Below, in pieces: positions 1 through 35,705 of a stretch of DNA of 40,739 bases; the first letter of the stretch is position 1, and each line of letters begins with the position of its first letter. Made by a program: the position numbers and the translations under genes. The notes beneath the pieces were generated by a model. That model made no database searches. It was given only the letters and a program-made list of their open reading frames with translations, and was not told the DNA's origin. The DNA is from Gracilaria domingensis (Eukaryota > Rhodophyta > Florideophyceae > Gracilariales > Gracilariaceae): NCBI GenBank assembly GCA_022539475.1, contig VCMS01000218.1, positions 1-40,739 of the forward strand. The letters run 5' to 3'.

Positions 1-893
1 GGCTTCCTCGAAGTCGTCGCTAATCGGAGCTCACGAGTCCATTTTCTCGCACGAGATGGGGTGGGGCAGACTTGTCGCAGCACGGTTCGGCATTACCTGA
101 ACGTTTTAGGAGTTTTCGTCAGTTCAATATCCGGTTTCGCGTGAATGCCCACATTGAACCCTGCCGCATGACTCATATCCGATATCGGTTTCTATAGCAC
201 TCCGAAAAGTTCTGAATCGTGCAGGCAACTCACCGGAGTCAGAATTAGATACAGTATCCATCCGTATCTCATAAAACTCTATCCAGTTCCGCATCTGATC
301 AACCCGTAATCTATAGAGGCTATCGTGGGTGCATATGGTTTCGAGGTCTGTCAAAACTTCCTAGCCAGTATTCGGAGGTTTGTATCGCATTCATCGCCCA
401 AGGTCTCCACCAATTTAGTAGTACTGCTCTGTGCCACATCTTGTGTGTGGAATCGAGTACTCTGGCTTGGCCGGCATAAGCGAACTGCCGTGTCTCTAGG
501 GCTGTATACTTCAACGTGTGCATATTCATGTAAATGTATGGTTTCACCATGTGCTGAACGTTTTTGTATCCAAGATGAGCCGCAAAACAATTCTATGCCC
601 ATACGACCTCACTGATAGCAAATCCAGTTGATTGCAGTTGTCTTTGGAAAACGACGTAAAGTGGGTATGTACACAGATGGTGCATGGTTCAGTTTTCGTT
701 TCTTTTTCGGTTGTTTCTTCTTCATCATTCTGATCTTGTGGTTCTCTCCCATTATGTGGCCAAGGTATGATAAGTATATAACGACCCCAAATGGGTCCAC
801 AGCTGTTGGTGGGATAAACACTGTCGTCTTCAGAACCTGCTTTTTCCTGGTCATGAAATATCCAACCAGGAATCGCACCGGTAGGTATATACC
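1..893. other. Flank without recognisable gene
   Basis: No reading frame here has a recognisable domain, and overlapping frames on both strands are of similar length, which is typical of non-coding DNA. The frame of the reverse-strand ORF ending at 894 continues past its stop codon to about 609. That continuation includes a lysine-rich stretch, so it could be a decayed 3' extension of that ORF. I see no repeats or RNA genes. Confidence 0.4.
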
Positions 894-1280
894 TTATCCA
901 TGGAGAGAGGAAATAATCGCGGGGTCTTTGGTCATCATCTCCGTCCTTCTTGTCAGAAGCTTCGTCACAAGGTAACGTTGCTCTACAGGTTTGTTATTCA
1001 CCACACTGTTTCGCAGCTGCTGCCGTGTCAAGTTCTGCAGGTTCTTGGAATTAGTGGCCTCCTCAAACATCTGCCTTGCCTCCGGAATATCCTTATAGTT
1101 CTCGGCGCAGAACTCTATAAGCCCTCTAAACCCCACGTCCCCTGGCCGATCAGGGCCTCCATCGCTGTTTGCCAAAGCATCGCGAAGAACCAAGAAAAGT
1201 GTCACATATGTATGGAACGCCGGAGGCGGAGCACTCATGTCGATAGGATTTATCTCCTCTCCATCATCGATGGAATCCAT
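894..1280 (-). CDS. Hypothetical acidic/amphipathic protein, 128 aa
   Basis: I do not recognise this protein. The frame encodes 128 residues with an acidic start (MDSIDDGEE), a mixed hydrophobic and charged centre, and a basic C-terminal third rich in K, R, N and Q. There is no signal peptide, membrane segment or known motif. Its start lies about 20 bases from the inverted end of the foldback element beginning near 1303, so an insertion may have cut it from an upstream exon or promoter. The frame stays open for another ~95 codons after its stop, which may mean a nonsense-broken longer gene. Overlapping forward frames are equally long, so this is only a weak coding call. Confidence 0.3.
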   Translation of the reverse strand: MDSIDDGEEINPIDMSAPPPAFHTYVTLFLVLRDALANSDGGPDRPGDVGFRGLIEFCAENYKDIPEARQMFEEATNSKNLQNLTRQQLRNSVVNNKPVEQRYLVTKLLTRRTEMMTKDPAIISSLHG

Positions 1281-1659
1281 CGCTTCAGCGCAAAGAACGG
1301 AGGCGAGACTTTAAATGGCGACTTAGGCTGGGCACCCCCGCTTTTGGCAGCTCCTCCTAGCGCACTGCCAGTCTCGCCCGTGTCTGTGTCCGCTCCCTTC
1401 TGGGGTCGGTGTCCGTGCCGCTTTGAGCGGGTGCGATAGCGTCGCGTGTCGGCCACGTCGCGATTCGGAGCTATTGCAAAGGTCGCGTATTGTGCTAATA
1501 GTCGCGGACTAAGTGGATGTGAAGTGCTAGTTTTCTCTAGTTTGATATATGTGCACGGCGTGTGCAGCGAAATCACTGCCGGAAGTGCCGAGGGGAGTCT
1601 TTTGGGAGGTCTCCGGAGGGTGCCAGAATGTGGCCAGAACGTGCCCACGGGCGGGGGGT

Positions 1660-1693
1660 CGGTCGTGTTAGGGTAGGTACCCTAACACGACCG
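1660..1693. repeat. Perfect 16-bp palindrome containing TTAGGG/CCCTAA
   Basis: CGGTCGTGTTAGGGTA (1660-1675) is followed after GG by its exact reverse complement (1678-1693). A second, imperfect version lies at about 1764-1799. Both sit within the central spacer of the foldback element. The TTAGGG hexamers are single, not tandem, so this is not a telomere array. Confidence 0.75.
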
Positions 1694-1799
1694 GACCCCC
1701 CCGCGGGCATAGAATCGCGCAATTTTCAAAAATCGCCCAAAACGTGCCCGCGGGAGGAAGGTTCCGGTCGTGTTAGGGTACCTCCCCTAGCACGACCGA

Positions 1800-1816
1800 C
1801 CCCCCCCCCCCCCCCC
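1800..1816 (+). repeat. 17-base cytosine homopolymer
   Basis: An unbroken run of 17 C follows the second TTAGGG-bearing palindrome in the foldback element. Long C runs are prone to replication slippage and to sequencing error, so its exact length is uncertain. Confidence 0.85.
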
Positions 1817-2926
1817 GCCCGCGGGCACGTTTTGGGCACATTCTGGCGCCTTTTCGGAACCTCCCAAAACACACCCCCCGGCACTTCCTGTACCCACTGC
1901 GTCACCTCAGTGGACCATCCCGTCTTCTCCACCCTCCAGAAACTCCCTAATTTTCACGCGCATCACACCTACCCTAGGGAAGAGGATGGTGTCGAGAGTC
2001 AATGATGTGGGGGACTCTATGCATTCTGCGCTATGTTCCATGACGAGGGCTGATATACTGGATGCACCGCCGATGTCCCGGAGGCCGCCCCTGGCGCAGC
2101 AATACTTAAGAGCGCCATCGATAGCAGTCTTTTGTAGTCTAGTGGTAAACTATGAAGCAACTTATCACTTTCAGTAAACTGATCTTTACGGCAGTCATCC
2201 ACTGTACATGACGCAATTCCATCCCGGAGCCGTAAGTTCGTTACGCGCATGCAGCCCATCGGAGGGCCGCCGCTGTGCTCGCCAGCGACCGCGCGCAACA
2301 ACAGTCTCACTCCGAACCCACGACACCGACCGCTGCTGACACCAGGGAGTTAGGGAGCATTGCAAGGATGGAGAAGACGCGTTGGTGCATTAAGGTGAGG
2401 CGGTGGGTGCCGGAAGTGCCGGGAGGAGTGTTTTGGAAGGTCTCCGGATGGTGCCAGAATGTGCCCAAAACGTGCCCGCTGACGAAAGCGGGGGTGCCCA
2501 GCGTGAGTCGCCATTTAAAGGCTCGCCTTCGTTCTTGTATCGTCCAGAGCGAGCGTATTGTTGATATACACCTTTCACTGCAAAAGCTGTTCAACATGAA
2601 CCAGACTTGTGTTCGAAAGCGTACGCAAAGCGTGACTCCTCGCACTCGGTGGAGCACTCGATCATTGCAAGGTGGAATGCCGGTTTCTCTGCAGATAGAT
2701 ATTGAGAATGAAGGAAAGGTGATATTCGGGGCGTTGTTGCATGGAATTGGAAGTTTTCTACGTCGCGAGTTGAACGGGAAGCAATTGGACCCAGGTCTTG
2801 TGGTGTATCATTTCATAATATTCTCATCAGTCGAAACGGTCAGACGTTCTACCCTTACCGGGCGGAGGGCCTGGATCTTTCAAAAACATCCAGGATCTCC
2901 GGACGGCCGCTCCTTGGGATGAGAAA

Positions 2927-4114
2927 ATGATGGAACCGGTGGCAGCCAGCATTCCGGCGTCCAAGCGACGAACGCTGAGCGCTATGAGTGAGGTGATGAC
3001 GCCCACAAGCCGCATGGAGCCAATTAGAAGTTCATCAACACCGAGAGGTAGCATATCAGTAGCACCTCCGCGGGCCAGTGCGTCCTCTGTTACGAAGCGG
3101 AAAATGGAGACGAGATCATCCCCAGCTACGAAACGGACAGGCCAAACAAAGTCCGCATCCGCTACGAAGCCCACTGCGTCGAGAAGGGCATCTCCTGCGA
3201 TGAATCAGACCGTGGACACGAGGGAAACTTCTCCGTCAAAACAGACGGTTCAGCACGGGACTGCTGTGCGAGAAGAGGAAGATGAGATCATAAAAGGTCC
3301 CCTTCTAGACGCGGATGCGCAATCCACACAACGAGCTGGTCCATCTGTACCCCAAACTGCACCACAAAGTGCGGAGCAGCAGGACGATGACATTGTGCTT
3401 CTGTCCACAAGAATGGCACGTTCAAGTGTTTCTGGCGAGCGGTCTGGAACACAAGGGACACCTACTCGGAGCAAGATGTACAGACGAATTCGTCAGAAGG
3501 TCCCAAAGGTGAACCTCAATCACTACTGGATGGTTGCTGTTACTGTTGACATCACTCTCGTGGACACTCCGCCCAATTTACTCCGTGGAGTAGGTAAACG
3601 CCACGTTGAAGCCCTTGTGAAGAGTATGGAGGAGCGGGGGATATTGCAGTCGATGGGTTCCCCAGTGGTGGCCTTACAAGATGCTACTACGGGAGAGAGG
3701 GATACTGACAAGGGACGTCTAACAAAGAAGTGCTTCATTGTAGATGGTGTGCATCGTCTGAAAGCTATACAATATTTGGCAGCGACTGGTGCACCGAAGT
3801 GGAAGCGATTAGCCAAGTTTTGGCGTTGCAATCTGCTGATACGAAGAGATGGGAGGCTCATTGGGATGAAGGAATCGTTATGTGTTGCTTCGTACCTCAA
3901 AGCGTCGACGAGTATCATGCGAAGGATGATGTTTGCAGACAAGATACCCTCTATAGTTAGTATGGTCGCCATTCTATTTGAAGATGTTGAGGGGGTGACG
4001 CCGACAGACGTGGATCCTGCAGAAGTGACGGAAGTGTTGAAGGAGAGCCAACTGATTGGGATTGTGACAGTATCTGAGATATGCCAATGTCGCCCTGCGA
4101 CTCATGTCTCGTGA
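2927..4114 (+). CDS. ParB-like domain segment of fusion gene
   Basis: This frame encodes 395 residues. Residues 1-110 are rich in K, R, S, T and A, with recurring ATK-type motifs, and look like a disordered DNA-binding tail. Residues 115-155 are acidic and glutamine-rich. Residues about 203-300 resemble the ParB/sulfiredoxin-like fold: a stretch like RHVEALVKSMEERGIL, as in the ParB helix before the beta strand, followed by VDGVHRLKAI (residues 272-281), matching the family's DGHHRLxA signature. ParB-fold proteins bind DNA or CTP, or act as nucleases or kinases; which applies here is unknown. The last ~15 residues are out of frame because of the deletion near 4065, and the true protein continues in the next frame. 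Confidence 0.6.
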   Translation: MMEPVAASIPASKRRTLSAMSEVMTPTSRMEPIRSSSTPRGSISVAPPRASASSVTKRKMETRSSPATKRTGQTKSASATKPTASRRASPAMNQTVDTRETSPSKQTVQHGTAVREEEDEIIKGPLLDADAQSTQRAGPSVPQTAPQSAEQQDDDIVLLSTRMARSSVSGERSGTQGTPTRSKMYRRIRQKVPKVNLNHYWMVAVTVDITLVDTPPNLLRGVGKRHVEALVKSMEERGILQSMGSPVVALQDATTGERDTDKGRLTKKCFIVDGVHRLKAIQYLAATGAPKWKRLAKFWRCNLLIRRDGRLIGMKESLCVASYLKASTSIMRRMMFADKIPSIVSMVAILFEDVEGVTPTDVDPAEVTEVLKESQLIGIVTVSEICQCRPATHVS

Positions 4115-5168
4115 GGGAATGCTGACCCATTTCGAGGATATATGTGAGACTGTGAGTGACATATGTATCACACATCTGTCCCATACTCCGCTATATGTCT
4201 TGGATGCCGAGGAGTTTTCCTTCATTCTTGATTGTCTTCATATGTTTCTATTGAAGGGCAAGTCGACGAAGACAAAGCAATGGAAAAGCTTTGAGGAGGT
4301 TCAAGGTTTCTTTTATGATAGAGCAGTGTCTCTGTTCCGCGCGGCTCGAGCAGTGAGGAATGAACTGAACGAGGAAGAGTCGATGGAAGTGTTCCTGAAA
4401 CGCGAAGTCAGTCTTTCTGCTCTATCGAATGAAGATGACGTTGAAGACCCAGACATCAACGCAGCTGTGTATCAGTTCTTTTTGGGACAAGTTGTGAACT
4501 TCAACACATTGCCGCGTGTTCGGAGCAGGACGAACTCAATTAGAACTGCCACGACTTCCGTTCAGAATCGATTGCAGACGATGCTCAAGGTAGTTTCGCC
4601 CCCCGCACCAGTGAAGCAGTCCGTGACGAAGAGGAGGACCTCCGCTGCTGCTGCTGCAACATCTGTCAGTGAAGAAGGGGAGCCGCGAAGAAGTGCACGA
4701 GAACGGGCGCAGGTGAGTTATAGAGAAATTGAGCACGGCCGAAATCGAGGCGCCGTAGAAGTTCTGGATAGCTCTGATGAAGAACAGCGGGCTCCGCCGA
4801 GGAAGAAACAGAGAAAGACTTTCACACAACAGATGAGATCTACTCTGAACAGCATGACACCGGATGACCTGATGTCTCAAATAAATGAACATGTGCTGAG
4901 AGGAAGGTCGATGAAGGTTCAGTTCGTGGCATTGGAAGAGAGAGGGAATGCAGAGACCGCAAGCAGTTCTGCTTTTGTGGGTGACGAAGAGCTTCTTGCT
5001 GTGACAGTTCCACGGGTTGTCACCGTCGAGAAAGATGCTGCGCCAGACGATCAGCAAGAGAAAGGTGGGGGGCCAATTGATGACGAGCTACCTACAGCTC
5101 TTCCGGAATCTGAGGAGCACGGACTTATTCGAGGAGACCCATATGATGGCCCACCGAACCCATCATGA
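4104..5168 (+). CDS. Charged linker segment of fusion gene
   Basis: This 354-residue frame has no recognised catalytic motif. The first ~120 residues are mixed helical and probably folded. After that come low-complexity stretches: basic and Ser/Thr-rich, then a basic patch like PPRKKQRK that could be a nuclear localisation signal, then an acidic Glu/Asp/Pro-rich end. The UGA stop at 5166 is Trp (UGG) in the right arm, where the frame runs straight into the oxygenase-like part. The apparent start at 4104 is therefore an internal methionine exposed by the upstream frameshift, not a true gene start. Confidence 0.5.
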   Translation: MSREGMLTHFEDICETVSDICITHLSHTPLYVLDAEEFSFILDCLHMFLLKGKSTKTKQWKSFEEVQGFFYDRAVSLFRAARAVRNELNEEESMEVFLKREVSLSALSNEDDVEDPDINAAVYQFFLGQVVNFNTLPRVRSRTNSIRTATTSVQNRLQTMLKVVSPPAPVKQSVTKRRTSAAAAATSVSEEGEPRRSARERAQVSYREIEHGRNRGAVEVLDSSDEEQRAPPRKKQRKTFTQQMRSTLNSMTPDDLMSQINEHVLRGRSMKVQFVALEERGNAETASSSAFVGDEELLAVTVPRVVTVEKDAAPDDQQEKGGGPIDDELPTALPESEEHGLIRGDPYDGPPNPS

Positions 5169-5198
5169 TGCGGGTATGTCAGGCTGAGACCGCAGGAA

Positions 5199-6506
5199 TT
5201 GCAAGGGAAGAACGTAGTTGAGCACAAGGACCCTTGGCCCAGAGTCATTCACTTGCCGAAGTCACATAGGTCGGAGCTGCTAAGTGTCTCGGATCTCAGA
5301 GATGTACACCATCTTGTGTTTTGGCAAGCTGCAAGGGCTGAACATCACCTACGGGCGGAGATATTTGGTATGCAGTATCCTCGTACTCGGCCGACAGGTA
5401 TGGATGATGAAGAGGTGCTGTGGATTGCTGCGAAGGAGCATGAAGAAGTTGGGCAAATGTTCTTGGCCCGAATGCAAGCTGAGCTTAGGCAGAATGGATA
5501 TTGCGTGCTTGATGGCTTTGCGACGGATAATGGTGTCCCTAAATGGGAGGAGTTAGAAGAAGTTCGGGAGCTCGGAGATGTGTCGGGGAAGTTGGTGGAC
5601 TTCTTCGGGAATGAGTATGGAGCGATGCCGGATATACGGAAAGAAGAGGAACAGAAGTCGTTTGTTCAAATCATCAACGATGATGAAGGATGGAAGGACG
5701 GGAGCGATGGACCATTTGAGGGGAGAGTGATGTCAACACGTTGGGGTACGGTGGAGAAGCCGGAGGATAATGAGGAGCTCAGGTGGGTTGTAAGGTCGCG
5801 TGCTTTACTTGATGTTCGAATGGGTACAATTGCTGCGGCTTTAAGACTATGGGTCAATGAAAGGGAAGCTGTGAAGATGTACACTCCGAAAACTGGTGGT
5901 CGATTTTTGGGGACCACGAGAAAGTGCAAGCGCCAGACGCTGCACACCGACTTCAGTGGTCTAGTTACGAAGGAAACAATGAATACTGGTATCCCCGGAT
6001 TCTTTGTAATGGCTTCTGCGAAAGAGGGCTTTCCTCTCTGGGTGAGCACTGGAAGCCGTCAACTGGTGGGGATGAACAACCAACAGTTGCGAGTGATGTC
6101 GGAGGTGTATCCAGCGAAGAAGATAATCATCCCATCGTACTCTGTATTCGTGGGCCGTGGTGATGTGACACATGCTGGAGCAAATGGGAAGGACAAGTTG
6201 GATAGGCCTGAGTCTATGGATTTGCTTGTTAGATACCACATGTACATGGTACCAGAGGGCTACGCACTACCTGATGCTGTTCATCGGGTACGGGATTTCC
6301 GACCCACGTTTGTCAATGGTGACGAGGAGGAGGAGGCCGAGGATGAACTGTTGTCCGATAAGGAGGGTGGGGCGGTTGACATGGAAGAAGACCAAGTGGT
6401 CGTGGAGATTGGTGTGGAAGCGGACGAAGGTAGAACCGAAGTGCTCGAGAGCAGTATTGATGACGATTTACCAACAATGAGGCTGCGAGCGCCTCGAAGT
6501 GGATGA
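5199..6506 (+). CDS. 2OG-Fe(II) oxygenase-like domain segment of fusion gene
   Basis: This 435-residue frame carries the hallmarks of a double-stranded beta-helix 2-oxoglutarate/Fe(II) oxygenase: an HxD pair (H249, D251, in QTLHTDF), a distal histidine in GDVTHAGA (H325), and an arginine in LLVRYHMYM (R345) where the 2OG-binding Arg is expected. The spacing is plausible, and the PSYSVFVGRGDVTHAGA stretch matches the family pattern of IPxGD-like strand then HAGA. Family members hydroxylate proteins, nucleic acid bases or small molecules; the substrate here is unknown. About 70 C-terminal residues are very acidic. The annotated start is simply the first Met after the UGA at 5166. Confidence 0.65.
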   Translation: MQGKNVVEHKDPWPRVIHLPKSHRSELLSVSDLRDVHHLVFWQAARAEHHLRAEIFGMQYPRTRPTGMDDEEVLWIAAKEHEEVGQMFLARMQAELRQNGYCVLDGFATDNGVPKWEELEEVRELGDVSGKLVDFFGNEYGAMPDIRKEEEQKSFVQIINDDEGWKDGSDGPFEGRVMSTRWGTVEKPEDNEELRWVVRSRALLDVRMGTIAAALRLWVNEREAVKMYTPKTGGRFLGTTRKCKRQTLHTDFSGLVTKETMNTGIPGFFVMASAKEGFPLWVSTGSRQLVGMNNQQLRVMSEVYPAKKIIIPSYSVFVGRGDVTHAGANGKDKLDRPESMDLLVRYHMYMVPEGYALPDAVHRVRDFRPTFVNGDEEEEAEDELLSDKEGGAVDMEEDQVVVEIGVEADEGRTEVLESSIDDDLPTMRLRAPRSG

Positions 6507-6832
6507 GAATGAGATGATTAGTAAATTATGAGTGTCTTGCGAGTATTAAGAGTAGTATACTACTACATATGAACATAGAAAAGGTGCGGCAGGCTGGTAA
6601 TTGAACAAATGTCATACCTCTTTGGTCCAGTTGCGTCTAATTGCAACATGCAACATGCTCGGTATCGTTAACATCATTGGTGGCACCATTCAATTCGCAA
6701 TTGAACATGAAACGCCCTACCACTTCTGAAACTGCACTTAAGGTTGCTTTGAAGAGAAGTATGAAACTGAGAAGTCTATGCAGTTCCTGTCTATGCGGTA
6801 CTTGTGGCAGTATGGTAATTGTATCAGGAAAA

Positions 6833-7672
6833 ATGGCAGAAGAACAGAGAGACTTGGCGGAAATTTCACCCAATACCTTGTCTAAGTTCATATTTGCCAA
6901 TGGTTACGGTATATTAAGTTCCGTTGCTGGAACGTTGAGAAGAGAAGGAGAGTCAATTCCAGAGAAAGTTGTGAAGTGTATGAAGTTCATTGACGAACGT
7001 GTTGGTTTCGGACCTGTCAGAGGGGGTGATGTGGGCGACGTGGAGGAGAAAATGGAAGGACTCGGATACTATAAGTTTGGTGTCTCGGCGAATCATGGAG
7101 CTTTCCTCCGTTTCTCTGACGAGGTAGATATTAAGGCTGCATTCAATGATCACACCTTTGACCACACTGTTGACGGACTACTGTTCCTGGCAAGGGATTT
7201 GAATAGGAGGCATGGTATTGTGAATGATGATGAGAAGGGGTTCGTGGAGACCAGAAGTGATAGTGGCCTTCCAAATTTCGTGTACAACAAACTGTGGCAG
7301 TGGAGAGAAGAAGTGGATTCTGCTATTGGTAACCTGTCGCAGAAGGTGGATGAGTTTGTTTTTTATCCCGGCGATAAAAATTGCGAAATTGTGGACAAGC
7401 GATACACAAAAGGAAGCGGAGGAGCAAATCTTGTGGATAATGAATCGAGATTTACTGATACGGATGACGTCGTGACGTTCGGAAGTGCTTTAAGCGACGG
7501 TCCTTTGCATGAGGTAGGCGTGTATGGCGTTCACGTCAAAGAAGATTGTATCCCGGGTGGAGTACACAACCTGTTCGAAAGCGTGGAGGATGTACATTCT
7601 ACATTTTTGTGGGTGGCTCTGTTGTACGGCTACGAGGAGAAGCAGCACGATAAAAACCACCATGAATCATAA
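6833..7672 (+). CDS. HAD-like protein lacking catalytic Asp, left copy
   Basis: This 279-residue protein is a paralogue of the convergent HAD phosphatase next door and aligns with it end to end. In motif I the neighbour reads SDIDGT, while this copy reads SSVAGT. The nucleophilic Asp is Ser and the general acid/base Asp is Ala. Motif II (TGRD in the intact family) reads RGGD. The motif III lysine (TKGSGGANLVD) and a degenerate motif IV (GSALSDGPL) remain. It should therefore lack HAD phosphotransferase activity but may keep the fold. I chose the Met at 6833 because it aligns with an internal Met of the neighbour; the frame is open back to 6641. It ends 52 bases from the neighbour's stop. Confidence 0.65.
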   Translation: MAEEQRDLAEISPNTLSKFIFANGYGILSSVAGTLRREGESIPEKVVKCMKFIDERVGFGPVRGGDVGDVEEKMEGLGYYKFGVSANHGAFLRFSDEVDIKAAFNDHTFDHTVDGLLFLARDLNRRHGIVNDDEKGFVETRSDSGLPNFVYNKLWQWREEVDSAIGNLSQKVDEFVFYPGDKNCEIVDKRYTKGSGGANLVDNESRFTDTDDVVTFGSALSDGPLHEVGVYGVHVKEDCIPGGVHNLFESVEDVHSTFLWVALLYGYEEKQHDKNHHES

Positions 7673-7679
7673 AAGGGTA

Positions 7680-7718
7680 TTGAGATATATAAGACCCTTT
7701 TATTACTGATATCTCATA
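7680..7718. terminator. Inverted repeat between convergent HAD genes
   Basis: TGAGATAT (about 7680-7687) and ATATCTCA (about 7711-7718) are inverted across the 52-bp gap between two convergent stop codons. The pairing is short, but it lies where both transcripts must end. The right arm has a related sequence. A role in 3'-end formation is inference only. Confidence 0.3.
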
Positions 7719-7724
7719 TCCTAG

Positions 7725-8675
7725 TTAAGTATTACAGTCATCGTAGCACTTGAAACAAATTCCAAGAGCGTTTCTAAACCATTGACACTTGCATTTTCTG
7801 TACCCGTACAGTTCTGCCACTCTTCTGATGGTCTCATGCTCGTCCTCCACCCCATCAACAAGATATGTTACCGCTGGTGGAGGGTCGTCTCCCTTCACAT
7901 GAACTGCGAGGGTTGCCATTTCATATAGAGGACCATCATTGGAAGCATTCCCGAAAGCAACGATTAAATTTGTGTTGAACTGGGGGTCGTTTTCAACCAA
8001 GGCTAGCTCCCAACTATTTTTCTTGAAACGAATGTCCCCTATGTCACAGTTTTCATCTTGAGGGTACGCAACCAGGTTCGGAAAGGATGTCACCACTTTT
8101 GAAATACCGCAGTTAACTTCTGTTTTCCACTTCGACAGTCCATTGTACGTGAAGTTAGGGAGTCCACTGTCTTTTCTAGTGCTCACAACTGCTTGTTGAC
8201 GATCTTCGTGAAGTCCGTGCGATTCATTTAAGGAGAGTGCAAGTCTCTCAAGTTCGGCTGCACATCTTTCGTAGCCTTCCCTGTCAAGGTCTTGATCAAT
8301 TTCGGTACCATTGTATAATCTCACCCGTGCGCCTTGGTTTCCAGAGATGTCAAAATTGTAGCCACCCAGGTGCTCCATGAAACTCTCGGCATCCTCTATA
8401 TCTCGCCCAATAGCAATTCCAAAACCAACGCGTGCATTGATGTACTTCATACATTTGACTGTTTCGGCAGGAATTTTGTCCCCAGCTCTTTTCAGAGTAC
8501 CGTCAATATCACTAATCACGGCGTAGCCATTTTCGAATATTTCGTTAGCCAGCTGCTGAGGAGTTACTTCTTGGGCTCTAACTTCTGAGTTATACATGTT
8601 TTGAAAGCTTTCGAAAGGGTTCGTTTTGCAAATGGGTGTGAGTATACGAATGAGAAGGATGTGATTGATGGTCAC
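7725..8675 (-). CDS. HAD-superfamily phosphatase (Cof/type IIB-like), left copy
   Basis: This 316-residue frame is predicted to be a HAD hydrolase that removes phosphate from a small sugar- or nucleotide-type substrate; the substrate is not predictable. Motif I is SDIDGT (D56 nucleophile, D58). Motif III is a Lys near 219 ahead of ELALVE, as in Cof-type HADs. Motif IV is GNASND (N243 and D247; many relatives have GDxxND). GNQGARV after motif II is also typical. In motif II this copy has IGRD where the right-arm copy has TGRD, so the conserved Ser/Thr is lost and activity may be reduced. An internal Met at residue 27 is an alternative start, because the first 25 residues are poorly conserved in character. 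The C-terminus is Cys-rich (CKCQ...CFKCYDDC). Confidence 0.75.
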   Translation of the reverse strand: MTINHILLIRILTPICKTNPFESFQNMYNSEVRAQEVTPQQLANEIFENGYAVISDIDGTLKRAGDKIPAETVKCMKYINARVGFGIAIGRDIEDAESFMEHLGGYNFDISGNQGARVRLYNGTEIDQDLDREGYERCAAELERLALSLNESHGLHEDRQQAVVSTRKDSGLPNFTYNGLSKWKTEVNCGISKVVTSFPNLVAYPQDENCDIGDIRFKKNSWELALVENDPQFNTNLIVAFGNASNDGPLYEMATLAVHVKGDDPPPAVTYLVDGVEDEHETIRRVAELYGYRKCKCQWFRNALGICFKCYDDCNT

Positions 8676-9217
8676 AAGGTGTTTCGTAGTATAAAAAGAG
8701 TCTAAGAACGACCATATACGGGTATTGTAGTACTGTTTTAAAACATTACTAGGACGAGAAGCTTCTGCATCGATTTGCAGTAAGGAAAGGAAGATTTAGT
8801 CATATATTATATGTACGGGTTCAAGTGGGTAAAGAAAACTATGAATATCTTCAACTTGAGCTTAGAAATCAAGAAAAGTAAAACAACCTCCATTAGGGGT
8901 TGAAACCCATAAAAGGTTTACCTTGCTTTATACGGGTGCCCCAAGTATTGCAAAGGCTTAGTTCTTCAGAAATATCACAATTTTGTACTTGTTTCGTTAC
9001 TAGTATTGTGCACTGTAATGATGTGGAATGACCCTTTTCCATCTAGCAAAAACATAGCCAGGTATTAGTAATAAGGGATGTAGGATTTGAAAAAGCATAT
9101 TTGAACCACAGAAGGACGAAAAATATAAGTAATGTAATAGAAACAGGTCATTTCGATAAAGTAACTTTTATGTTTAACTATCTCTAAAAGGTTTAGAACA
9201 CCGAAACGTCATGTGTT
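8676..9217. other. Intergenic region between HAD and reductase-like genes, left arm
   Basis: About 540 bases contain no credible frame. The region is conserved in the right arm (34155-34702), including short inverted motifs around 8903-8925 (GGTTGAAACC and AAAGGTTTACC). It must contain the HAD promoter and the 3' end of the reductase-like gene. Confidence 0.5.
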
Positions 9218-10126
9218 CTAACCTCGAAGCTGGGGAAATGGGGATGGGGATAACTTTTCCTTAACAACGTTGACGTAGTTTGTATGAAAAGGAGCGGGGT
9301 CACAGCCTACGATGTCTCTTTCTTGGCGGGAAAAGTCATGGAAGTACGCGTTCCTAAACTGAAAGTCGGAGAAAGAAGTAAGGAAGCCAACGAGAGTTTT
9401 CCCATATGAAAGAAGTCGCCAAATGGTCTCTTCCAGGTTGAAAGTAGTACCTGTCTTAAGCGAAACTATCTTCAACAGCTCTTTCATTATTGTGAGCACA
9501 ACCGTACTGCAGTCCGTAGCGACTATGTCCATAGGAATGAAACCTCTGGAGGCCCCGACGATGTTGAACGCTGATAGCCACACGAGCTTCTCATAATAGC
9601 TTGCAAGAAATGTGTCTTCGTCGACAACCCCGCAAGTGAGACCTATAGATCTAAACCTGTCTGCAATGTTGGAGGCCCACTTTCCTGTTGGGAAAGTGAG
9701 ACCATCCGGACTTTGAGGAGTGACACCATCCTGCGGAGCTGCGTTTCTTGAGGGGACACCAACGTATAGGACAACTTTTGAACATTTGTCCACACCGAGT
9801 TTCGAAAGAAATGGTATGATGTGTCCATTCTGAAAGAAAACGAGATTCTCTCTGAGCGAATAAGGACAAGCCTGAATTACGGTCTCCAGGGTGTTCGTTC
9901 TTCCACAAACTAGTATCGGTACATCAGAAAGATGAGAGTTAGCAGCCATGCTGCAGAATTCTTGTGCGGAAATGATTATATCTTGTTCGTTCGCCAGCAT
10001 GGTACCTATACGCCCCCTTCCAACAACAACGGCCCGAGTCCTTCGGGTGGGAGATGAGGCCTGAGGGACTTCAGAGTATCTGGGACTCGGAAACGGAGTC
10101 GGAGGCATGTCGGACTGGGCGTTCAT
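9218..10126 (-). CDS. Ketopantoate-reductase-like oxidoreductase, left copy
   Basis: This 302-residue protein resembles the ketopantoate reductase (ApbA/PanE) superfamily, NAD(P)H-dependent reductases with an N-terminal Rossmann fold. After a Pro/Ser-rich leader (residues 1-30) comes a dinucleotide motif VVVGRGRIGTML (GxGxxG at 36-41). FFQNG (97-101) matches the family's QNG motif, and EKLVWLSAFN (179-188) resembles the C-terminal catalytic KLxxNxxxN segment, although the first Asn is not conserved. Classical family members reduce ketopantoate in coenzyme A synthesis, but the divergence here makes the substrate uncertain. The start Met begins the block conserved in both arms. The gene is divergently placed from the epimerase. 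Confidence 0.65.
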   Translation of the reverse strand: MNAQSDMPPTPFPSPRYSEVPQASSPTRRTRAVVVGRGRIGTMLANEQDIIISAQEFCSMAANSHLSDVPILVCGRTNTLETVIQACPYSLRENLVFFQNGHIIPFLSKLGVDKCSKVVLYVGVPSRNAAPQDGVTPQSPDGLTFPTGKWASNIADRFRSIGLTCGVVDEDTFLASYYEKLVWLSAFNIVGASRGFIPMDIVATDCSTVVLTIMKELLKIVSLKTGTTFNLEETIWRLLSYGKTLVGFLTSFSDFQFRNAYFHDFSRQERDIVGCDPAPFHTNYVNVVKEKLSPSPFPQLRG

Positions 10127-10527
10127 TGCAAGTGTTCGATTGTTTTTGTCTGACGATAAAAATTGGAAGATGGGGCGGAGAACTGCTGGGGTAAAGAGTG
10201 ATACTTAAGTACAAACGGTTGGGGAGCGCGGAACGGGAACATGGTCCACCTTGTGAAAGTGAGCGAAATCTATGCTATGTGATTGTACTGAATGAATGAT
10301 AAAGCTTGTATGAGACGACATGCCTCAAAGTGTGGTGATGTTTTATGAAAACGAGGTGGAAGAGTAGAAAGTGTACAATGAATGAAACAGAATTCGAACC
10401 TGAGTTGTAAAGTACGAGTTACGGGGAACTTGAAAACAGGATAAGGGGACCCATTTTGGCTTCAGAAATGACGTGAACGGGTTCTATAGCTTCACTCGGA
10501 TTGCCATAATCTTCCTTTTTATTGATG
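10127..10527. other. Divergent intergenic region, reductase-like/epimerase
   Basis: About 400 bases separate the divergent reductase-like and epimerase start regions and should hold both promoters. Most of it is conserved in the right arm (about 32870-33251). I see no further gene. Confidence 0.5.
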
Positions 10528-10534
10528 TATAAAA
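10528..10534 (+). promoter_or_regulatory. TATA box of epimerase gene
   Basis: TATAAAA lies 63 bases upstream of the chosen epimerase ATG at 10591, a normal distance for a core promoter with a short leader. It argues against using the in-frame ATG at 10522, which lies upstream of the box. The right arm has lost this box in a deletion. Confidence 0.6.
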
Positions 10535-10590
10535 GGGGGGTATGTCTGGGAGGGACGGGTTTGGCGTTACTGAAGTTATCGATGTTCAGT

Positions 10591-11295
10591 ATGGATTCTC
10601 TTTTAATTATAGCGCCATCAATTTTGGCTTCAGACTTTGCTCGCCTTTCAGATGAAGCGAGTGCAATGGAAGAGGCTGGAGCGGAGTGGCTGCATATAGA
10701 TTTAATGGATGGTCATTTTGTGGCGAACCTTACTGTTGGACCGCCTGTTGTGAAAGCGTTGCGGAGGCATACGAAATTGTTTTTGGACTGTCATCTGATG
10801 GTATCAGATCCTGGGCGATGGATAAAAGACTTTGCAGAAGCAGGCGCAGACGGAGTCACATTTCATATCGAGAGTGTGGCTAAGGGACTAGAAAAGTGCG
10901 AGGTACCAACTGAGGAGAAGAACGTGGTGTTGAAGGAATTATGTAACCGAATTAAAAGGATGGGAATGCAGGTTGGAGTTGTGTTGCGGCTGAATACATC
11001 TATAAAGGTCGTAGAAGCACTTATGAAGGAAGGAGTTGTAGACATGTTATTGTTGATGACGGTGGAGCCAGGGTTTGGAGGACAGACGTTTATGGAGGGT
11101 GTTCTTGATAAGGTGCGACATGCAAGGGAGTTGTACCCAAGAATAGGGATACAAATGGATGGGGGTATTGGACTGAGTTCTGTGAAAGGAGTAGTGAAGG
11201 CCGGTGCAAACATTTCAGTTGCAGGATCTGCCATCTTTGGCTCGAGTAACCCAGCTCATGTCACAGCTGGTTTTCGAAAGCTTGGTTATGGATAG
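10591..11295 (+). CDS. RPE: Ribulose-phosphate 3-epimerase
   Basis: This 234-residue enzyme interconverts ribulose 5-phosphate and xylulose 5-phosphate in the pentose phosphate pathway. As it has no transit peptide it is probably the cytosolic form. Family landmarks are in order: APSILASDF near the start (S10), HIDLMDGHFV (H35 and D37 metal ligands, D40), DCHLMV (H68), MTVEPGFGGQTF (156-167) for phosphate binding, and QMDGGIG (D190). Its length is typical of eukaryotic RPE. Unusual residues are RLNTS where most members have LKPxT, and ANLTVG where PNLTFG is usual, so kinetics may differ. The start at 10591 fits both the TATA distance and family N-termini; the frame is open to 10522. Confidence 0.9.
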   Translation: MDSLLIIAPSILASDFARLSDEASAMEEAGAEWLHIDLMDGHFVANLTVGPPVVKALRRHTKLFLDCHLMVSDPGRWIKDFAEAGADGVTFHIESVAKGLEKCEVPTEEKNVVLKELCNRIKRMGMQVGVVLRLNTSIKVVEALMKEGVVDMLLLMTVEPGFGGQTFMEGVLDKVRHARELYPRIGIQMDGGIGLSSVKGVVKAGANISVAGSAIFGSSNPAHVTAGFRKLGYG

Positions 11296-11358
11296 TAACA
11301 TAAAATTTATGTTTATTACATTGTTACCTTTACGTGTTATCACGACTATATTCTCCGT

Positions 11359-11696
11359 CTCCATTGGAGATGTATTTCTCTTGTGTCACAACCGGGAAAG
11401 GATGTGTGAGAACATCAATATATCCCGAGTGGATGTTAAGAGGGAGGATGAACTACTCTACGTGCTATCATTGTTACCCATCGGGTGTCCAGTGGTGACA
11501 TATTCTTTTTTTGTCACAACCCGCACAGGATGTGACAGAAGAAGAAGATGCTCCCAGTCGAGACGAAGGGAGAGCTACTCTAAGTACAATCACTAGTCCC
11601 CAGCTCACCTCCACTGGCGATATCTTCCTGTTTTGCCACAACCACCGAGTGAGGTTATGGCGGAAGAGAAAAATATCGCCAGTCGAGGCGAGGTGG
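11359..11696 (+). repeat. Three tandem ~80-90-base hairpins, left arm
   Basis: Three related units start at about 11359, 11486 and 11609, a period of roughly 123-127 bases. Each can fold on itself. A 5' arm of the type CCAYTGGxGAYAT...CACAACC pairs with a 3' arm of the type GGxTrTGxxxGAA...CCAGTxGAxG. The linkers between units are also alike (ACTACTCTA/CTACTCTAAG followed by an ATCA-rich stretch). All three units are retained in the right arm. They lie downstream of the epimerase stop and upstream of the coiled-coil gene. Possible roles are small-RNA precursors, 3'-end or processing signals, or a dimer-type non-autonomous element. Confidence 0.7.
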
Positions 11697-11929
11697 GTGG
11701 GGACTATGTGAGCGCGAAAGAGGGGACAGACGGGGGGCGCTTTAATACTGGAAGGTGCGGAGGTGTACAGTAGATGTTTTGGCGGGAAATGGGATGAGGG
11801 AAACAGGGACAATCATGGTGCTGGATATAGCCCGTGTGCTTTGACAGTGTGGGTGGACAGCACAGCTTAACTCGATTGCACTGTATCGCAGCGAAAACTT
11901 CGATCCAACTACTACTTTTTCTTCTGAAG

Positions 11930-12859
11930 ATGTCGAACGGATACGTGAAAGATGAGGAGCTGTTGGCGCTGTTGGAGGGGAAGGAGGTACCGCCGACGCC
12001 GTCACCAAAGCGAGAAGAGGACGTGATTACGGCGGCTGGTCGGATGTCGCAGAAGAAGGAAGTGCCCGATGAAGGAAAGGAGTTTGAAGCGAGGAGAGGG
12101 GATGGTGATGAGGTGGAGAAGGGTGTAGAATTGGAGGTGGAGGGGGGTCGCAATGGAGAGAAGGGGTGCGGTGCATCTGAGTCAGTTAGAGGTTGGGGAC
12201 CAGATAGAGAGTGGGGGCGGAGAGGGTGACAGGGAGATGCGGTTTGTGGGGGAGATGAAGGCGAGGGTGGGGATGTTGGGGTTGGTGATGAAGGAGCGAC
12301 TGGAAGACGGCATTGTGGAGACTGTAACGGAAATTGGCGCTGTGGTGCTGAGTGGGGGTGGTAGTGGTGTTTCGGCTGAGGCGATTTCGAGTCTGCGGAA
12401 TTCGTTGTCGGTATTGGGAGTGGAGATGAGGAATCATGTGTATGGGATAGTGGAGTGTGCGGGGATGGAGGTTGGAGAGTTGCGGGAGGAGAATAGGGTT
12501 CTGAACGAGAGGTTGGACGTGCTGGAGAAGGAGGTGAAGGAGCTGGGCAAGAGGCAAAGATTGGTCGAAGAGAAGACGGTGAAATGAGGTGTGGAGGGAA
12601 AGACGGAGAAGGGAAGTGTGGGAAGGGTGGCGGTGCAGAAGGGGCCCCCTGTGACACCGAAGACAAAGGGTGGTGGGTTGGAGATGGGAACATCCGTCTC
12701 AAGAAGAGGCGTAAGGAGATGAAGAAGGTGGTGGAGGAGGTGCCGCTGGAGGGAGTCGGAGCTCCAGTGGTGACTCGGTTTAGGAGTGCGGCGCAAGTAG
12801 CGCGGACTGCGAAGGGGGTTATGAGGGGACAGGAGGAGAGAAGGATGGGAGGGATTTAA
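11930..12859 (+). pseudogene. Coiled-coil protein gene, left copy, broken
   Basis: Against the intact right-arm copy this gene shows three lesions. One is an extra G in a run near 12141-12146, which shifts the frame. The second is a UGA at 12585-12587 where the right copy has GGA. The third is a base lost near 12674-12690, which knocks the C-terminal basic patch out of frame. The N-terminus (MSNGYVKDEELLALLEGKE) and the central coiled-coil stretch remain readable in separate frames, 11930-12229 and about 12153-12587. The ends of the gene coincide with those of the right copy, 930 bases in both. Confidence 0.7.
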
Positions 12860-13328
12860 AGCCGTTCTGGGGCGAAGCGGGTATACGAGAATGGGGAGAG
12901 TTGCCCACCTGACTTCTACGAAATGATGTTTGCGGAGACAGAGAGGGAGGATGCGAACGCGTGATGGACGGAAAATGGGTAAAGAGTGGGGATGGTGTGT
13001 ACTGGGAAGAAGTGATGGGATGATTGAGGTGGGATGAGTTGCGATTGGCATTGCAACATGGGAAAAAATGGAAACCCAAACTAGCACGAGCGCAGTTTTG
13101 AGAGAGGGTCGCGGAAAAGAGTGAATGGGATGGTGCGGCGAAGTAGAACCTCTACAAAAACTAGGAGACGCAAGAATTAAACTGCGCGAGATCGAATTTA
13201 ATATTCCAAAATTTCTTAATTTTTTGAGTGTCAGCCTCTGCCACCCCCTCGCGCACCCCAAATAGCCCAAAAACTAGCTTAGTTTCTAAAGCGAACAGAC
13301 TATATTTCACTTTGTAGAACACAGACTT
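12860..13328. other. Inner end of left arm, no gene seen
   Basis: This stretch lies downstream of the coiled-coil gene and has no convincing reading frame on either strand. It is conserved in the right arm (30497-30964), which is evidence for common descent rather than for function. Similarity stops sharply after 13327. Confidence 0.5.
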
Positions 13329-19366: not shown

Positions 19367-19427
19367 GCGCTTTCAACTTTTCGTACACATCTCTTGATCA
19401 TTCTATTGTTTTCGTTGCACAAAAGCC

Positions 19428-19892: not shown

Positions 19893-19930
19893 CTTAGGGG
19901 GCACATTTGCCGGGACTTCTGTTTTAACAG

Positions 19931-26900: not shown

Positions 26901-26904
26901 CGGC

Positions 26905-30496: not shown

Positions 30497-30964
30497 CGTC
30501 TGTGTTCTGCAAAGTGGAATATAGTCTGTTCGCTTTGGAAACTAAGCTAGTTTTGGGGCTATTTGGGGCGCGCGAGGGGGTAGCAGAGGCTGGCACTCAA
30601 AAAATTAAGAAATTTTGGAATATTAAATTCCATTTCGCGCAGTTTAGTGCTTGGGTCCCCTAGTTTTTGTAGAGGTTCTACTTCGCCGCACCACCCCATT
30701 CACTCTTTTCCGCGACCCTCTCTCAAAACTGCACTCGTGCTAGTTTGCCTTTCCATTTTCTCCCATGTTGCAATGCCAATCGCAACTCATCCCACCTCAA
30801 TCATCCCATCACTTCTTCCCAGTCCACACCACCCCCGCTATTTACCCATTTCTCGCCCATCACGCGTTCCCATCCTCTCTCTCCGTCTCCGCAAACGTCA
30901 TTTTGTAGAAGTCAGGTGGACAACCCTCCCCCTTCTCGTATACCCGCCTCGCCCCAAAACGGCT

Positions 30965-31894
30965 TCAAATCCCTCCCATCCTTCTCTCCTCCTGTCCCCT
31001 CAGATTCCCCTTCGCAGTCCGCGCTACCTCCGCCGCACTCCTAAACCCAGTCACCACCGGAGCTCCCACTCCCTCCCGCGCCACCTCCTCCTCCACCTTC
31101 TTCATCTCCTTACGCCTCTTCTTCAGACGGCTCTTCCCATCCCCAACCCCACCACCCTTTGTCTTCGGTGTCACAGGAGACCCCTTCTGCACCGCCACCC
31201 TTCCCACACTTCCCTTCTCCGTCTTTCCCTCCACACCTCCTTTCAGCGTCTCCTCTTCCACCAATCTTTGCCTCTTGCCCAGCTCCTTCACCTCCTTCTC
31301 CAGCACGTCCAACCTCTCGTTCAGAACACTATTCTCCTCCCGCAACTCTCCAACCTCCCTTCCCGCACACTCCACTATCCCATACACATGATTTCTCATC
31401 TCCACTCCCAATACCGACAACGAATTCCGCAGGCTCGAAATCGCCTCAACCGAAACACCACTACCACCCCCACTCAGCACCACACCGCCCATTTCCGTTA
31501 CAATCTCCACAATTCCATCGTCCAGTTGCTCCTTCATCACCAACCCCAACATCCCCACCCTCGCCTTCATCTCCCCCACAAACCGCATCTCCCTGTCACC
31601 CTCTCCGCCCCCACTCTCTATCTGGTCTCCAACCTCTAACTGACTCAGATGCACCGCACCCCTTCTCTCCATTGCGACCCCCTCCACCTCCAATTCTACC
31701 CCCTTCTCCACCTCATCACCATCCCCTCTCCTCGCCTCACACTTCTTTCCTTCATCAGCCACTTCCTTCTTCTGCGACATCCGACCAGCCGCCGTAATCA
31801 CGTCCTCTTCCCGCTTTGGTGACGGCGTCTGCGGTACCTCCTTCCCCTCCAACAGCACCCACAGCTCCTCATCCTTCACGTATCCGTTCGACAT
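30965..31894 (-). CDS. Coiled-coil protein with basic patch, intact copy
   Basis: This 309-residue protein has no family that I recognise. From the shared Met (MSNGYVKDEE) it has a charged N-terminal third, then a Gly-rich stretch (SGGGSGVS). A clear heptad region of ~45 residues follows (EVGELREENSVLNERLDVLEK onward), expected to form a parallel coiled coil. Then comes a Lys/Gly linker and a strong basic patch, SRLKKRRKEMKK, that would serve as a nuclear localisation signal or nucleic-acid contact. The frame is open further upstream (to 31990), but the left copy supports starting here. A structural or chromatin-associated role is inference. Confidence 0.6.
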   Translation of the reverse strand: MSNGYVKDEELWVLLEGKEVPQTPSPKREEDVITAAGRMSQKKEVADEGKKCEARRGDGDEVEKGVELEVEGVAMERRGAVHLSQLEVGDQIESGGGEGDREMRFVGEMKARVGMLGLVMKEQLDDGIVEIVTEMGGVVLSGGGSGVSVEAISSLRNSLSVLGVEMRNHVYGIVECAGREVGELREENSVLNERLDVLEKEVKELGKRQRLVEEETLKGGVEGKTEKGSVGRVAVQKGSPVTPKTKGGGVGDGKSRLKKRRKEMKKVEEEVAREGVGAPVVTGFRSAAEVARTAKGNLRGQEERRMGGI

Positions 31895-32130
31895 CTTCAG
31901 AAGAAGAAGTAGTAGTTGGATCGAAGTTTCCGCTGCGATACAGTGCAATCGAGCTAAACTGTCCTGTCCACCCCCACTGTCCAACCACACGGGCTATATC
32001 CAGCACCATGATTGTCCCTGTTTCCCTCATCCCATTTCCCGCCAAAACATCTACTGTACACCTTCGCGCCTTCCACTACTTAAGCGCCATCTCTCTGTCT
32101 CCTCTTCGCGCTCACATAATCCCCACCCAC

Positions 32131-32460
32131 CTCGCCTCGACCGGCGATATTTTTCTCTTCCACCATAACCTCACTCGATGGTTATAGCAAAACAGGAAGA
32201 TATTGCCAGTGGAGGCAAGCTAGGGACTAGTGATTGCACTTAGAGTTGCTCACCCTCTGTCTCGACTGGGGGCATGTTCTTCTTCCGTCACATCCTTTGT
32301 GGGTTGTGACAAAAAAAGAATATGTCACCACTCGACACAGGATGGGTAACAATGATAGCACGTAGAGTAGTTCATCCTCCCTCTCAGCGTCCACTGGGGA
32401 TATATTGATGTTCTCTCACATCCTTTCCCGGTTGTGATACAAGAGAAATACATCTCCAAT
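32131..32460 (-). repeat. Three tandem hairpins, right arm
   Basis: This is the mirror copy of the left-arm array, with units near 32131-32215, 32255-32345 and 32383-32460. Hairpin folding is kept despite scattered substitutions in both arms. The array lies between the remaining 3' end of the epimerase gene and the coiled-coil gene. Confidence 0.65.
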
Positions 32461-32533
32461 GGACACGGAGAATATAGTCGTGATAAAACGTAAAGGTAAC
32501 AATGTAATAAACAATAAATTTATGCTACTATCT

Positions 32534-32870
32534 CTAACAAACCTTTCGAAAACCAGCTATGACATGAGCTGGGTTACTCGAGCCAAAGATGGCAGATCTT
32601 GCCACTAAAATGTTTGCACCGGCCTTCACTACTCCTTTCACAGTACTCAGTCCAATACCTCCATCCACCTCTATCCCTATTCTTGGGTACAACTTCCTTG
32701 CATGTCGCACCTTATCCAGAACACCCTCCATAAACGCCTGTCCTCCAAACCCTGGCTCCACCGTCATCAACAATAACATGTCTACAACTCCTTCCTTCAT
32801 AAGTGCTTCTACGACCTTTGTAGACGTATTCGGGCGCAATCCAACTCCATCCTTTTAATTATGGCAATCC
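32534..32870 (-). pseudogene. Ribulose-phosphate 3-epimerase, truncated copy
   Basis: Only the C-terminal ~105 residues remain, from NTSTKVVEALM through MTVEPGFGGQAF and EVDGGIG to the end. Compared with the left arm, everything from just before the TATA box (left 10511) to codon ~121 (left 10952) is missing, removing promoter, start and the metal-binding HID and DGHF segments. The junction falls at a shared AAT. The remnant cannot encode an active barrel. It keeps RPNTS where the left copy has RLNTS, so it preserves an older residue. Confidence 0.85.
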
Positions 32871-33251
32871 GATTGAAGCTATAAAACCCGTTCACCTCAT
32901 TTATGAAGCCAAAATGGCTCCTTTCATCCTGTATTCAAGCTCCCCGTAACTCGTACTTTACAACTACTTTACAATTCAGGTTCGAAATCAGTTTCATTCA
33001 TGGCACACTTTTTACTCTTCCACCTACCTTTCATAAAACATCATCACACTTTGTGGCTTGTCGTCTCATACAAGGCCTATCATTCATTCAGTACAATCAC
33101 ATATCATACATTTCGCTCACTTTCACAAAGTGAACCATGTTCCCGTTCTGCGCTTCCCAACCGTTTGTACTTAAGTACCACTCTTTACCCCAGCAGTTCT
33201 CCGCCCCATCTTCCATTTTTATCGTCACACAAAAACAATCAAACACTTGCA

Positions 33252-34154
33252 ATGAACTCCCAGTCCGACATGCCTCCCACTCCGCCTCCGAGTCCCAGAT
33301 ACTCTGACGTCCCTCAGGCCTCATCTCCCGCCCGAACGACTCGGGCCGTTATTGTTGGAAGGGGGCGTATAGGTACCATGCTGGCGAACGAAGAAGATAC
33401 GGTCATTTCCGCACACGAATTCTGCAGCATGGCTGCTACCTCTCATCTTTCTGATGTACCGATACTAGTTTGTGGAAGAACGAACACCCTGGAGACCGTA
33501 ATTCAGGCTTGCCCTTATTCGCTCAGAGAGAATCTCGTTTTCTTCCAGAATGGAGACATCATACCATTGCTTTCGAAGCTCGGTGTGGACAAATGTTCAA
33601 AAGTTGTCCTATACGTTGGTGTCCCCTCAAGAAACGCAGCTCCGCAGGATGGTGTCACTCCTCAAAGTCCGGATGGTCTCACTGTCGCAACAGGAAAGTG
33701 GGCCTCCAACGTTGCAGACAGGTTTAGGTCTATGGGTCTCACTTGCGCGGTTGTCGACGAAGACACATTTCTCGTAAGCTATTATGAGAAGCTCGTGTGG
33801 CTATCAGCGTTCAACATCGTCGGGGCCTCAAGAGGTTTCATTCCTATGGACGTAGTCGCTACGGAGTGCAGTACGGTTGTGCTCACAATAATGAAAGAGC
33901 TGTTGAAGATAGTTTCGCTTAAGACAGGTACTACTTTCAACCGGGAAGAGACCATTGGGCGACTTCTTGCATATGGGAAAACTCTCGTTGGCTTCCCTAC
34001 TTCTTTCTCCGACTTTCAGTTTAGGAACGCGTACTTCTACGACTTTTCCCGCCAAGAAAGAAACATCGTAGGCCGTGACCCGGCTCCTTTTCATACGAAC
34101 TACGTCAACGTTGTTAAGGAAAAGTTATCCCCCTCCCCATTCCCCCAGCTTTGA
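33252..34154 (+). CDS. Ketopantoate-reductase-like oxidoreductase, right copy
   Basis: This 300-residue counterpart of the left-arm gene is open throughout. The GxGxxG motif (VIVGRGRIGTML), FFQNG and EKLVWLSAFN are all kept, and about 28 of 300 residues differ from the left copy. The frame extends upstream to 33000, but the start at 33252 matches the left copy's Met, and the extra sequence is the conserved intergenic DNA. The upstream promoter region survives, although the divergent epimerase has been lost. Confidence 0.65.
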   Translation: MNSQSDMPPTPPPSPRYSDVPQASSPARTTRAVIVGRGRIGTMLANEEDTVISAHEFCSMAATSHLSDVPILVCGRTNTLETVIQACPYSLRENLVFFQNGDIIPLLSKLGVDKCSKVVLYVGVPSRNAAPQDGVTPQSPDGLTVATGKWASNVADRFRSMGLTCAVVDEDTFLVSYYEKLVWLSAFNIVGASRGFIPMDVVATECSTVVLTIMKELLKIVSLKTGTTFNREETIGRLLAYGKTLVGFPTSFSDFQFRNAYFYDFSRQERNIVGRDPAPFHTNYVNVVKEKLSPSPFPQL

Positions 34155-35653: not shown

Positions 35654-35705
35654 CTATGATATGAGATCTCAGTAATAAAAGTGTCGTGTATATCTCAATA
35701 CCCTT

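Follow-up and report, generated by a model that had tools for sequence, protein, structure and literature searches.

A ParB-like/oxygenase-like fusion gene as an accessory gene of a high-copy Plavaka-type transposon in the red alga Gracilaria domingensis

Results

A ParB-like part and an oxygenase-like part are fused in one gene

We analysed a stretch of 40,739 nucleotides from the red alga Gracilaria domingensis (contig VCMS01000218.1, positions 1 to 40,739; hereafter the window), whose two arms carry, in opposite orientation, broken copies of a gene that joins a ParB-like part to an oxygenase-like part. The results showed that a high-copy DNA transposon of about 23.7 kb, of the Plavaka type (CACTA/EnSpm-related), carries this fusion as an accessory gene, and on balance we regard the fusion as probably a self-targeted eraser of DNA or chromatin marks that serves this giant element. 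An intact natural copy of the protein, P0001, was read from the same genome (locus L013:2495-6409) as a single frame of 1,305 amino acids, and full-length open fusion frames were present at L013 and L014. When P0001 was aligned to the window by tblastn, the left arm matched in three frames (residues 1-78 at 2596-2826, 88-490 at 2837-4066 and 494-1305 at 4068-6503) with an in-frame TGA at 5166-5168, and the right arm matched in differing frames (residues 55-466 at 40620-39394, 480-986 at 39356-37836 and 987-1305 at 37836-36883).

An initial annotation, drawn from the letters of the window, had proposed that both arms descend from one ancestral frame beginning at 2596. Such a frame was indeed recovered, as the left-arm TGA and the left-arm frame change near 4066 are both read through in the right arm, the right-arm frame change at 37836 is read through in the left arm, intact copies exist, and 2596 is the exact start codon of the intact protein; the length of about 1,200 codons given at that time was too short. 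The proposed order of parts was seen again in P0001, which runs from a basic tail (lysine and arginine make up 33% of residues 1-30) through a ParB-like part (VDGVHRL/VDGLHR) and a linker with the basic patch PPRKKRRK to an HxD...H...R motif. The residues first numbered H249, D251 and H325 are H1119, D1121 and H1195 of P0001 (window positions in Table 1).

Three protein searches returned two Gracilaria proteins and 13 others, 898-1,456 amino acids long. The two annotated G. domingensis proteins (89-92% identity) are labelled SasA (LPXTG) and Med15-like, labels that look like misannotation. The 13 distant proteins showed the same domain order at 23-30% overall identity to P0001, so the fusion is not a product of chance, and the joining of the two parts in one gene is real. 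In the alignment of P0001 with these 13 relatives, H1119, D1121, H1195 and R1215 were kept in all 14 proteins, with 70-81 residues from the first to the second histidine and 12-20 from there to the arginine, a spacing that is usual for Fe(II)/2-oxoglutarate (2OG) oxygenases. The DGxHR box was found in 13 of the 13 alignment rows with letters at that place and thus in 12 of the 12 distant proteins covering it, P0015 beginning after the box. Mean pairwise identity was 45% in residues 1061-1242, 34% in 830-1060 and 28% in the ParB part, and was lowest in the linker. It had been considered that intact homologues might always keep the parts as separate genes; no such relative was found by protein searches covering 0.55-1.75 times the query length. 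A profile search returned only the two Gracilaria proteins, searches of phages (by tblastn), viral contigs and prokaryotic genome contigs found no relative, and an Rfam search gave no match. By eye, residues ~30-115 of P0016 form a cysteine-rich N-terminus where other relatives share a different stretch, and the sequences suggest an exchange of targeting modules there.

Among 14 natural copies within the genome, the pooled ratio of nonsynonymous to synonymous differences per site (pN/pS) was 0.72 overall (median dN/dS, the corresponding substitution ratio, 0.70). Regional values were 0.56 (0.51) for the ParB part, 0.72 (0.68) for the oxygenase part and 1.27 (1.12) for the C-terminal tail. This set was taken from 20 loci, of which L012, L022, L023, L024, L027 and L028 were dropped for shortened or masked frames, while L025 was retained with 879 masked bases. 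Such mild constraint is expected of copies that decay after insertion, and what is kept among the 14 distant proteins argues more strongly for constraint.

Assignment of the two parts

A fold search with the ParB-like part, covering the folds listed by VIA-align, gave matches to ParB, Noc and sulfiredoxin, and the match spanned residues 113-430 of a relative. Helices were modelled in residues 251-451 of P0005, and the ParB chain 5k5a was aligned over 108..431. The DGxxR-type box in a ParB-N fold, the mark of the ParB/sulfiredoxin-like superfamily, was present, and the ParB-like domain named in the initial annotation is supported. The part is called ParB-like and not ParB because Pfam ParB_N (PF02195) matched none of the 14 fusion-family proteins. 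Bacterial ParB/Noc and sulfiredoxin proteins resemble it in the DGxHR box and the fold, whereas here the part is eukaryotic and joined to an oxygenase-like domain. DndB and GmrSD_N, DGQHR-type proteins with a DGxHR-like box, gave single weak matches at the box that lay below any cut-off (E 0.21 in P0017 and E 0.21 in P0002, respectively).

For the C-terminal domain, the HxD...H...R motif of 2OG-Fe(II) oxygenases was present in 14/14 proteins, and from this invariant motif we infer a probable Fe(II)/2-oxoglutarate oxygenase. The assignment was kept at that strength because no Pfam family matched and no usable structure model was obtained. The oxygenase-like domain of the initial annotation is supported by its motif; no Pfam 2OG family was found in the 14 proteins even at E <= 10. 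Membership in TET/JBP was rejected by profile, as Tet_JBP (PF12851) matched neither the 14 proteins, at E <= 10, nor the genome.

The fusion gene is carried by a high-copy Plavaka-type transposon

The two arms paired at 91-98% over most of 2812-13326 versus 30498-40568 and proved to be oppositely oriented copies of one element with different flanks, by which a chance inverted repeat was rejected. With a 566-residue query, the best 77 of 870 candidate places in the genome, its own place included, all matched the fusion at >=86% identity, and in 20 copies compared the repeat extended beyond the fusion gene on both sides. The right terminus was fixed, ending in ...TTTGCAGAACACAGACG, and 16 matches to it ran on into 10 distinct flanks. 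The left terminus, CGTCTGTCTCTTGCAGA, was seen at C218, L030, C99 and C250 (left ends: 40 scored of 620 candidates). Imperfect terminal inverted repeats were present (CGTCTGTCTCTTGCAGA / CGTCTGTGTTCTGCAAA), and in the right-arm element copy the ends lie 23,746 bp apart. The element termini read CGTCTGT..ACAGACG; at three insertion sites uninterrupted versions lacked the terminal CG, so the CG belongs to the element and was rejected as a target duplication.

The transposase was recognised by the Plavaka profile PF18759, which scored E 4.9e-20 on L045, a stretch 98% identical over 1,301 bp to right-arm element DNA, and the right-arm element holds an open Plavaka frame of 1,100 codons. Of the 77 fusion copies, 7 had one of the Plavaka matches in the genome (best 123 of 672 candidates) 9.8-11.3 kb upstream on their own strand, and eight further fusion-Plavaka pairs stood within 25 kb at scattered positions, both counts being taken among the matches listed. 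For fungal elements, TGT..ACA or CATCA..TGATG are given as the termini of PlavakaA and PlavakaB, with a target-site duplication of 2-3 bp (PMC12730594). The termini found here differ from these, and the element was accordingly filed as Plavaka-type by its transposase and not as fungal PlavakaA/B. A tandem array of 3.8 copies of a 415-bp repeat was observed near the element left end at L044:3533-5122.

A divergent methyltransferase-SET gene and a 34-bp palindrome lie upstream of the fusion gene

Divergent from the fusion gene, an open frame of 1,055 codons (L046:52-3219, minus strand) scored for N6_N4_Mtase (E 3.9e-15) and for SET (E 1.4e-7), and by these domains its protein would be a writer-type pairing. 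Among the matches listed, 29 of the 77 fusion copies had a methyltransferase-SET match upstream on the opposite strand, 3.5-6.6 kb away. C109, with a match on the same strand at 12.5 kb, stands outside the 29.

Between the divergent genes lies a 34-bp palindrome, CGGTCGTGTTAGGGTA-NN-TACCCTAACACGACCG, formed by 16-bp half-sites around a 2-bp centre. Two copies occur in the window against a chance expectation of 0.00, and 785 exact copies were counted genome-wide against 0 of the reversed control; they are often arrayed with a spacing of ~110 bp. Half-sites with up to 3 mismatches were found within 3 kb upstream in 15 of the 16 copies that have the fusion start, often at ~480-500 bp, and in the sixteenth, L019, the sequence starts only ~350 bp before the fusion start. 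This survey took in the left arm and 18 loci; L012, L018 and L026 lack the start motif and fall outside the 16, half-sites being seen in L012 and L018 and none in L026 at the 3-mismatch limit. In ungapped windows centred on 59 sites, conservation was 0.93 in the palindrome and 0.56 elsewhere. Among 50 palindrome places listed (contigs C2 to C18), 34 were within 10 kb of a listed element feature, and elements at C16 and C17 combined a left end and a Plavaka gene with a palindrome array ~5 kb from that end. Judged by its sequence and position, the palindrome is a plausible parS-like target of the ParB-like part.

Discussion

Giant red-algal EnSpm/Plavaka elements with accessory genes have reportedly been described from Bostrychia (Petroll et al. 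2025, cited in PMC12477816). A ParB-oxygenase fusion was not found in titles and abstract openings of mostly open-access literature, and the Petroll paper may contain it. For algal transposons, ParB and methyltransferase accessory proteins are reported in PMC12477816. As in our case, an accessory protein of a giant element there combines a ParB-like part with an epigenetic enzyme; in that system ParB is joined to the methyltransferase, whereas here its partner is the oxygenase-like domain, and a separate gene fuses the methyltransferase with SET. The earlier statement that no described eukaryotic family with this order was known agrees, for the ParB-oxygenase order, with the literature covered, but the general kind has a precedent in this kindred combination. 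According to PMC12730594, fungal DNA transposons (KDZ, Plavaka and others) carry TET/JBP dioxygenases proposed to lift silencing, and Plavaka is among those whose dioxygenase is thought to counter silencing by DNA methylation. ParB has 0 occurrences in the main text of that paper, whereas the element found here, in a red alga, has a ParB-like fusion without a Tet_JBP match and a methyltransferase-SET neighbour. The element found here recombines known themes, a transposon dioxygenase and a ParB-methyltransferase, as a ParB-like part with an oxygenase-like domain together with a methyltransferase-SET protein.

In the mechanism that we propose for a self-targeted eraser, the ParB-like part would bring the fusion protein to the DNA of the element, with the palindromes as the probable docking sites, and the C-terminal domain, working as an Fe(II)/2-oxoglutarate oxygenase, would oxidise a base mark. 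This mark could be the methyl group that the methyltransferase of the element adds, or 5-methylcytosine of the host; a chromatin mark is the less likely target. By such action the element would remain expressed and mobile, controlling its own epigenetic state, and the presence of the fusion beside a DNA-methylating enzyme hints that it writes and erases marks on its own DNA. Modification of nucleic acid or chromatin had been suggested from the start, and this idea is partly supported, moved from a host gene to an accessory gene of a transposon. A wider model can be entertained tentatively, in which the methyltransferase-SET writer and the ParB-oxygenase eraser form a self-addressed module around a parS-like array: ParB would load at the palindromes and spread, perhaps as a sliding clamp gated by cytidine triphosphate, and the oxygenase would reset the marks of the element. 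If true, a eukaryotic transposon would have adopted the logic of bacterial centromeres to govern its chromatin. The ways in which large transposons of eukaryotes evade or control silencing are still an open question. An element that brings a DNA writer of its own, together with a probable eraser containing a DNA-recognition domain and a conserved candidate address in hundreds of copies, makes this question testable. The architecture has no scoring Pfam domain, and its relatives sit in probably metagenomic records.

Other explanations were weighed against erasure. Rather than remove the methyl group that the methyltransferase adds, the oxygenase might convert it to a stable modified base by which the transposon is shielded or marked, in the manner of phage TET/JBP enzymes or of base J; the genes for the writer and the oxygenase are divergent neighbours in 29 of the 77 scored copies, and modification over removal is discussed for transposon TET/JBP enzymes in PMC12730594. 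The element open reading frames scanned contained no recognisable glycosyltransferase or comparable partner, and we hold this hypermodification rather unlikely. A protein that only binds DNA as an accessory of transposition, perhaps as a regulator, with a C-terminal domain that is catalytically dead or of another fold, would fit the lack of a recognised oxygenase family and the failed structure model; the region 1061-1242 is, however, the most conserved of the protein (45% versus 28% in the ParB part) and the candidate ligands are invariant, which makes this reading unlikely.

The SET domain in the divergent partner protein raises the further idea that the oxygenase, as its partner, acts on proteins such as histones. 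The cofactor residues of JmjC histone demethylases are different ones, whereas a candidate cofactor-binding arginine lies 12-20 residues past the second histidine in 14/14 proteins; the ParB part moreover points to DNA, and we consider a protein target quite improbable. That the fusion is a single-copy host gene duplicated with the inverted repeat, as the initial annotation had implied, would agree with the two arms seen in the window, and it was rejected as next to impossible, as there are at least 77 places at >=86% identity, a fixed terminus with diverse flanks and a transposase in the same element.

Several results weigh against a transposon-borne, self-targeted eraser. Selection within the genome is only weakly shown by pN/pS. 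Pfam ParB_N had 0 matches in the genome, compared with matches in 10 of 14 control genomes, and an AFG1_ATPase profile scored in the ParB part of 3/14 proteins, below cut-off (best E 0.015). In the oxygenase part, the failure of every Pfam 2OG family at E <= 10 is joined by the absence of any Pfam match up to E 1 in the 14 proteins, of any of the six matches of a PDB profile search (E 0.51-2.8), and of any NCBIfam match in the 2 of the 14 proteins scanned. The genome search for Tet_JBP, empty at E <= 10, belongs on the same side, with uninformative controls, of which only 1/14 matched and none over the cut-off. The structure model of the window piece, built from 4 sequences, reached a mean confidence (predicted local distance difference test, pLDDT) of 35.5, and residues 434-1050 of the P0005 model fell below pLDDT 50. 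As to the element, C218 and C99 showed no target-site duplication, and the ends at C250 may come from different copies. Among the matches listed, 70 of the 77 fusion copies had no Plavaka match and 48 no methyltransferase match at the expected place, many of them near contig ends, and 47 had no methyltransferase match within 20 kb. The palindrome conservation of 0.94 against 0.73 in other columns (55 gapped windows, picked by an outer motif) is descriptive and carries no formal test, as windows within one array overlap and the copies are related; 16 of the 50 palindrome places listed stood more than 10 kb from any listed element feature, and the transposase or the methyltransferase could be the palindrome binder instead.

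Other features of the element and the spacer

The coordinates of the features in the window are collected in Table 1. The element also carries cargo genes, of which the ribulose-phosphate 3-epimerase gene was found in at least 150 places in the genome.

Table 1 Features of the window, with approximate domain borders in the left-arm fusion copy
Feature	Position	Strand	Basis
Element copy of the left arm, truncated by the contig start, with its right terminus ...ACAGAC(T) at 13327	1..13327	+	
Right-arm element copy; full element to C218:54241, Plavaka frame outside the window	30497..40739	-	
ParB-like/oxygenase-like fusion gene, left-arm copy, broken (three frames, one in-frame TGA)	2596..6506	+	tblastn of P0001, open reading frames
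Fusion gene, right-arm copy, residues 55-1305, frameshifted	36883..40620	-	tblastn of P0001
ParB/sulfiredoxin-like domain with DGxHR box, ~residues 305-486 of P0001, approximate borders	3480..4066	+	
Helical domain after the ParB-N part, ~residues 494-620, approximate borders	4068..4448	+	P0005 model
Linker, poorly conserved; basic patch PPRKKRRK at ~4794-4817	4449..5075	+	17% mean pairwise identity
Oxygenase-like domain, with H (5943), D (5949) and H (6171) as candidate metal ligands and R (6231) as candidate 2-oxoglutarate-binding residue	5076..6314	+	
Perfect 34-bp palindrome, candidate ParB-domain target	1660..1693	.	
Second palindrome copy, 2 mismatches	1765..1798	.	
DNA N6A/N4C methyltransferase-SET gene part, damaged, residues 2-423 of the L046 frame	51..1307	-	60% identity
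Element gene, by eye like the neighbouring HAD phosphatase-like gene	6641..7672	+	no Pfam match
HAD-IIB phosphatase-like cargo gene	7725..8795	-	Pfam Hydrolase_3 7e-10; HAD-SF-IIB 6.1e-8, below its cut-off
Cargo gene without assigned family, 328 amino acids	9218..10204	-	
Cargo gene for ribulose-phosphate 3-epimerase, with an open frame in the left arm	10510..11295	+	Pfam 2e-64

In the right arm, ~460 bp are gone relative to window 10510-10970, including the 5' half of the epimerase gene, and about half of the 150 scored epimerase places matched only from residue 121-128 onward.

The 17-kb spacer between the arms contained, at window 15976-18022 and 23624-24886, fragments of a DDE_Tnp_1_7 transposase and a DUF659 protein, which we take to be piggyBac-like and hAT-associated, respectively. 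A region at 26200-28000 was GC-rich (71% in 27001-28000), with 46-bp and 71-bp tandem repeats. A gene-like stretch at 19398-22910 showed a weak Vps39_1 match just below cut-off; counting the window, nine places in the genome scored for it, and since three of these hold long open frames at 87-90% identity, the window may carry a duplicate that has decayed.

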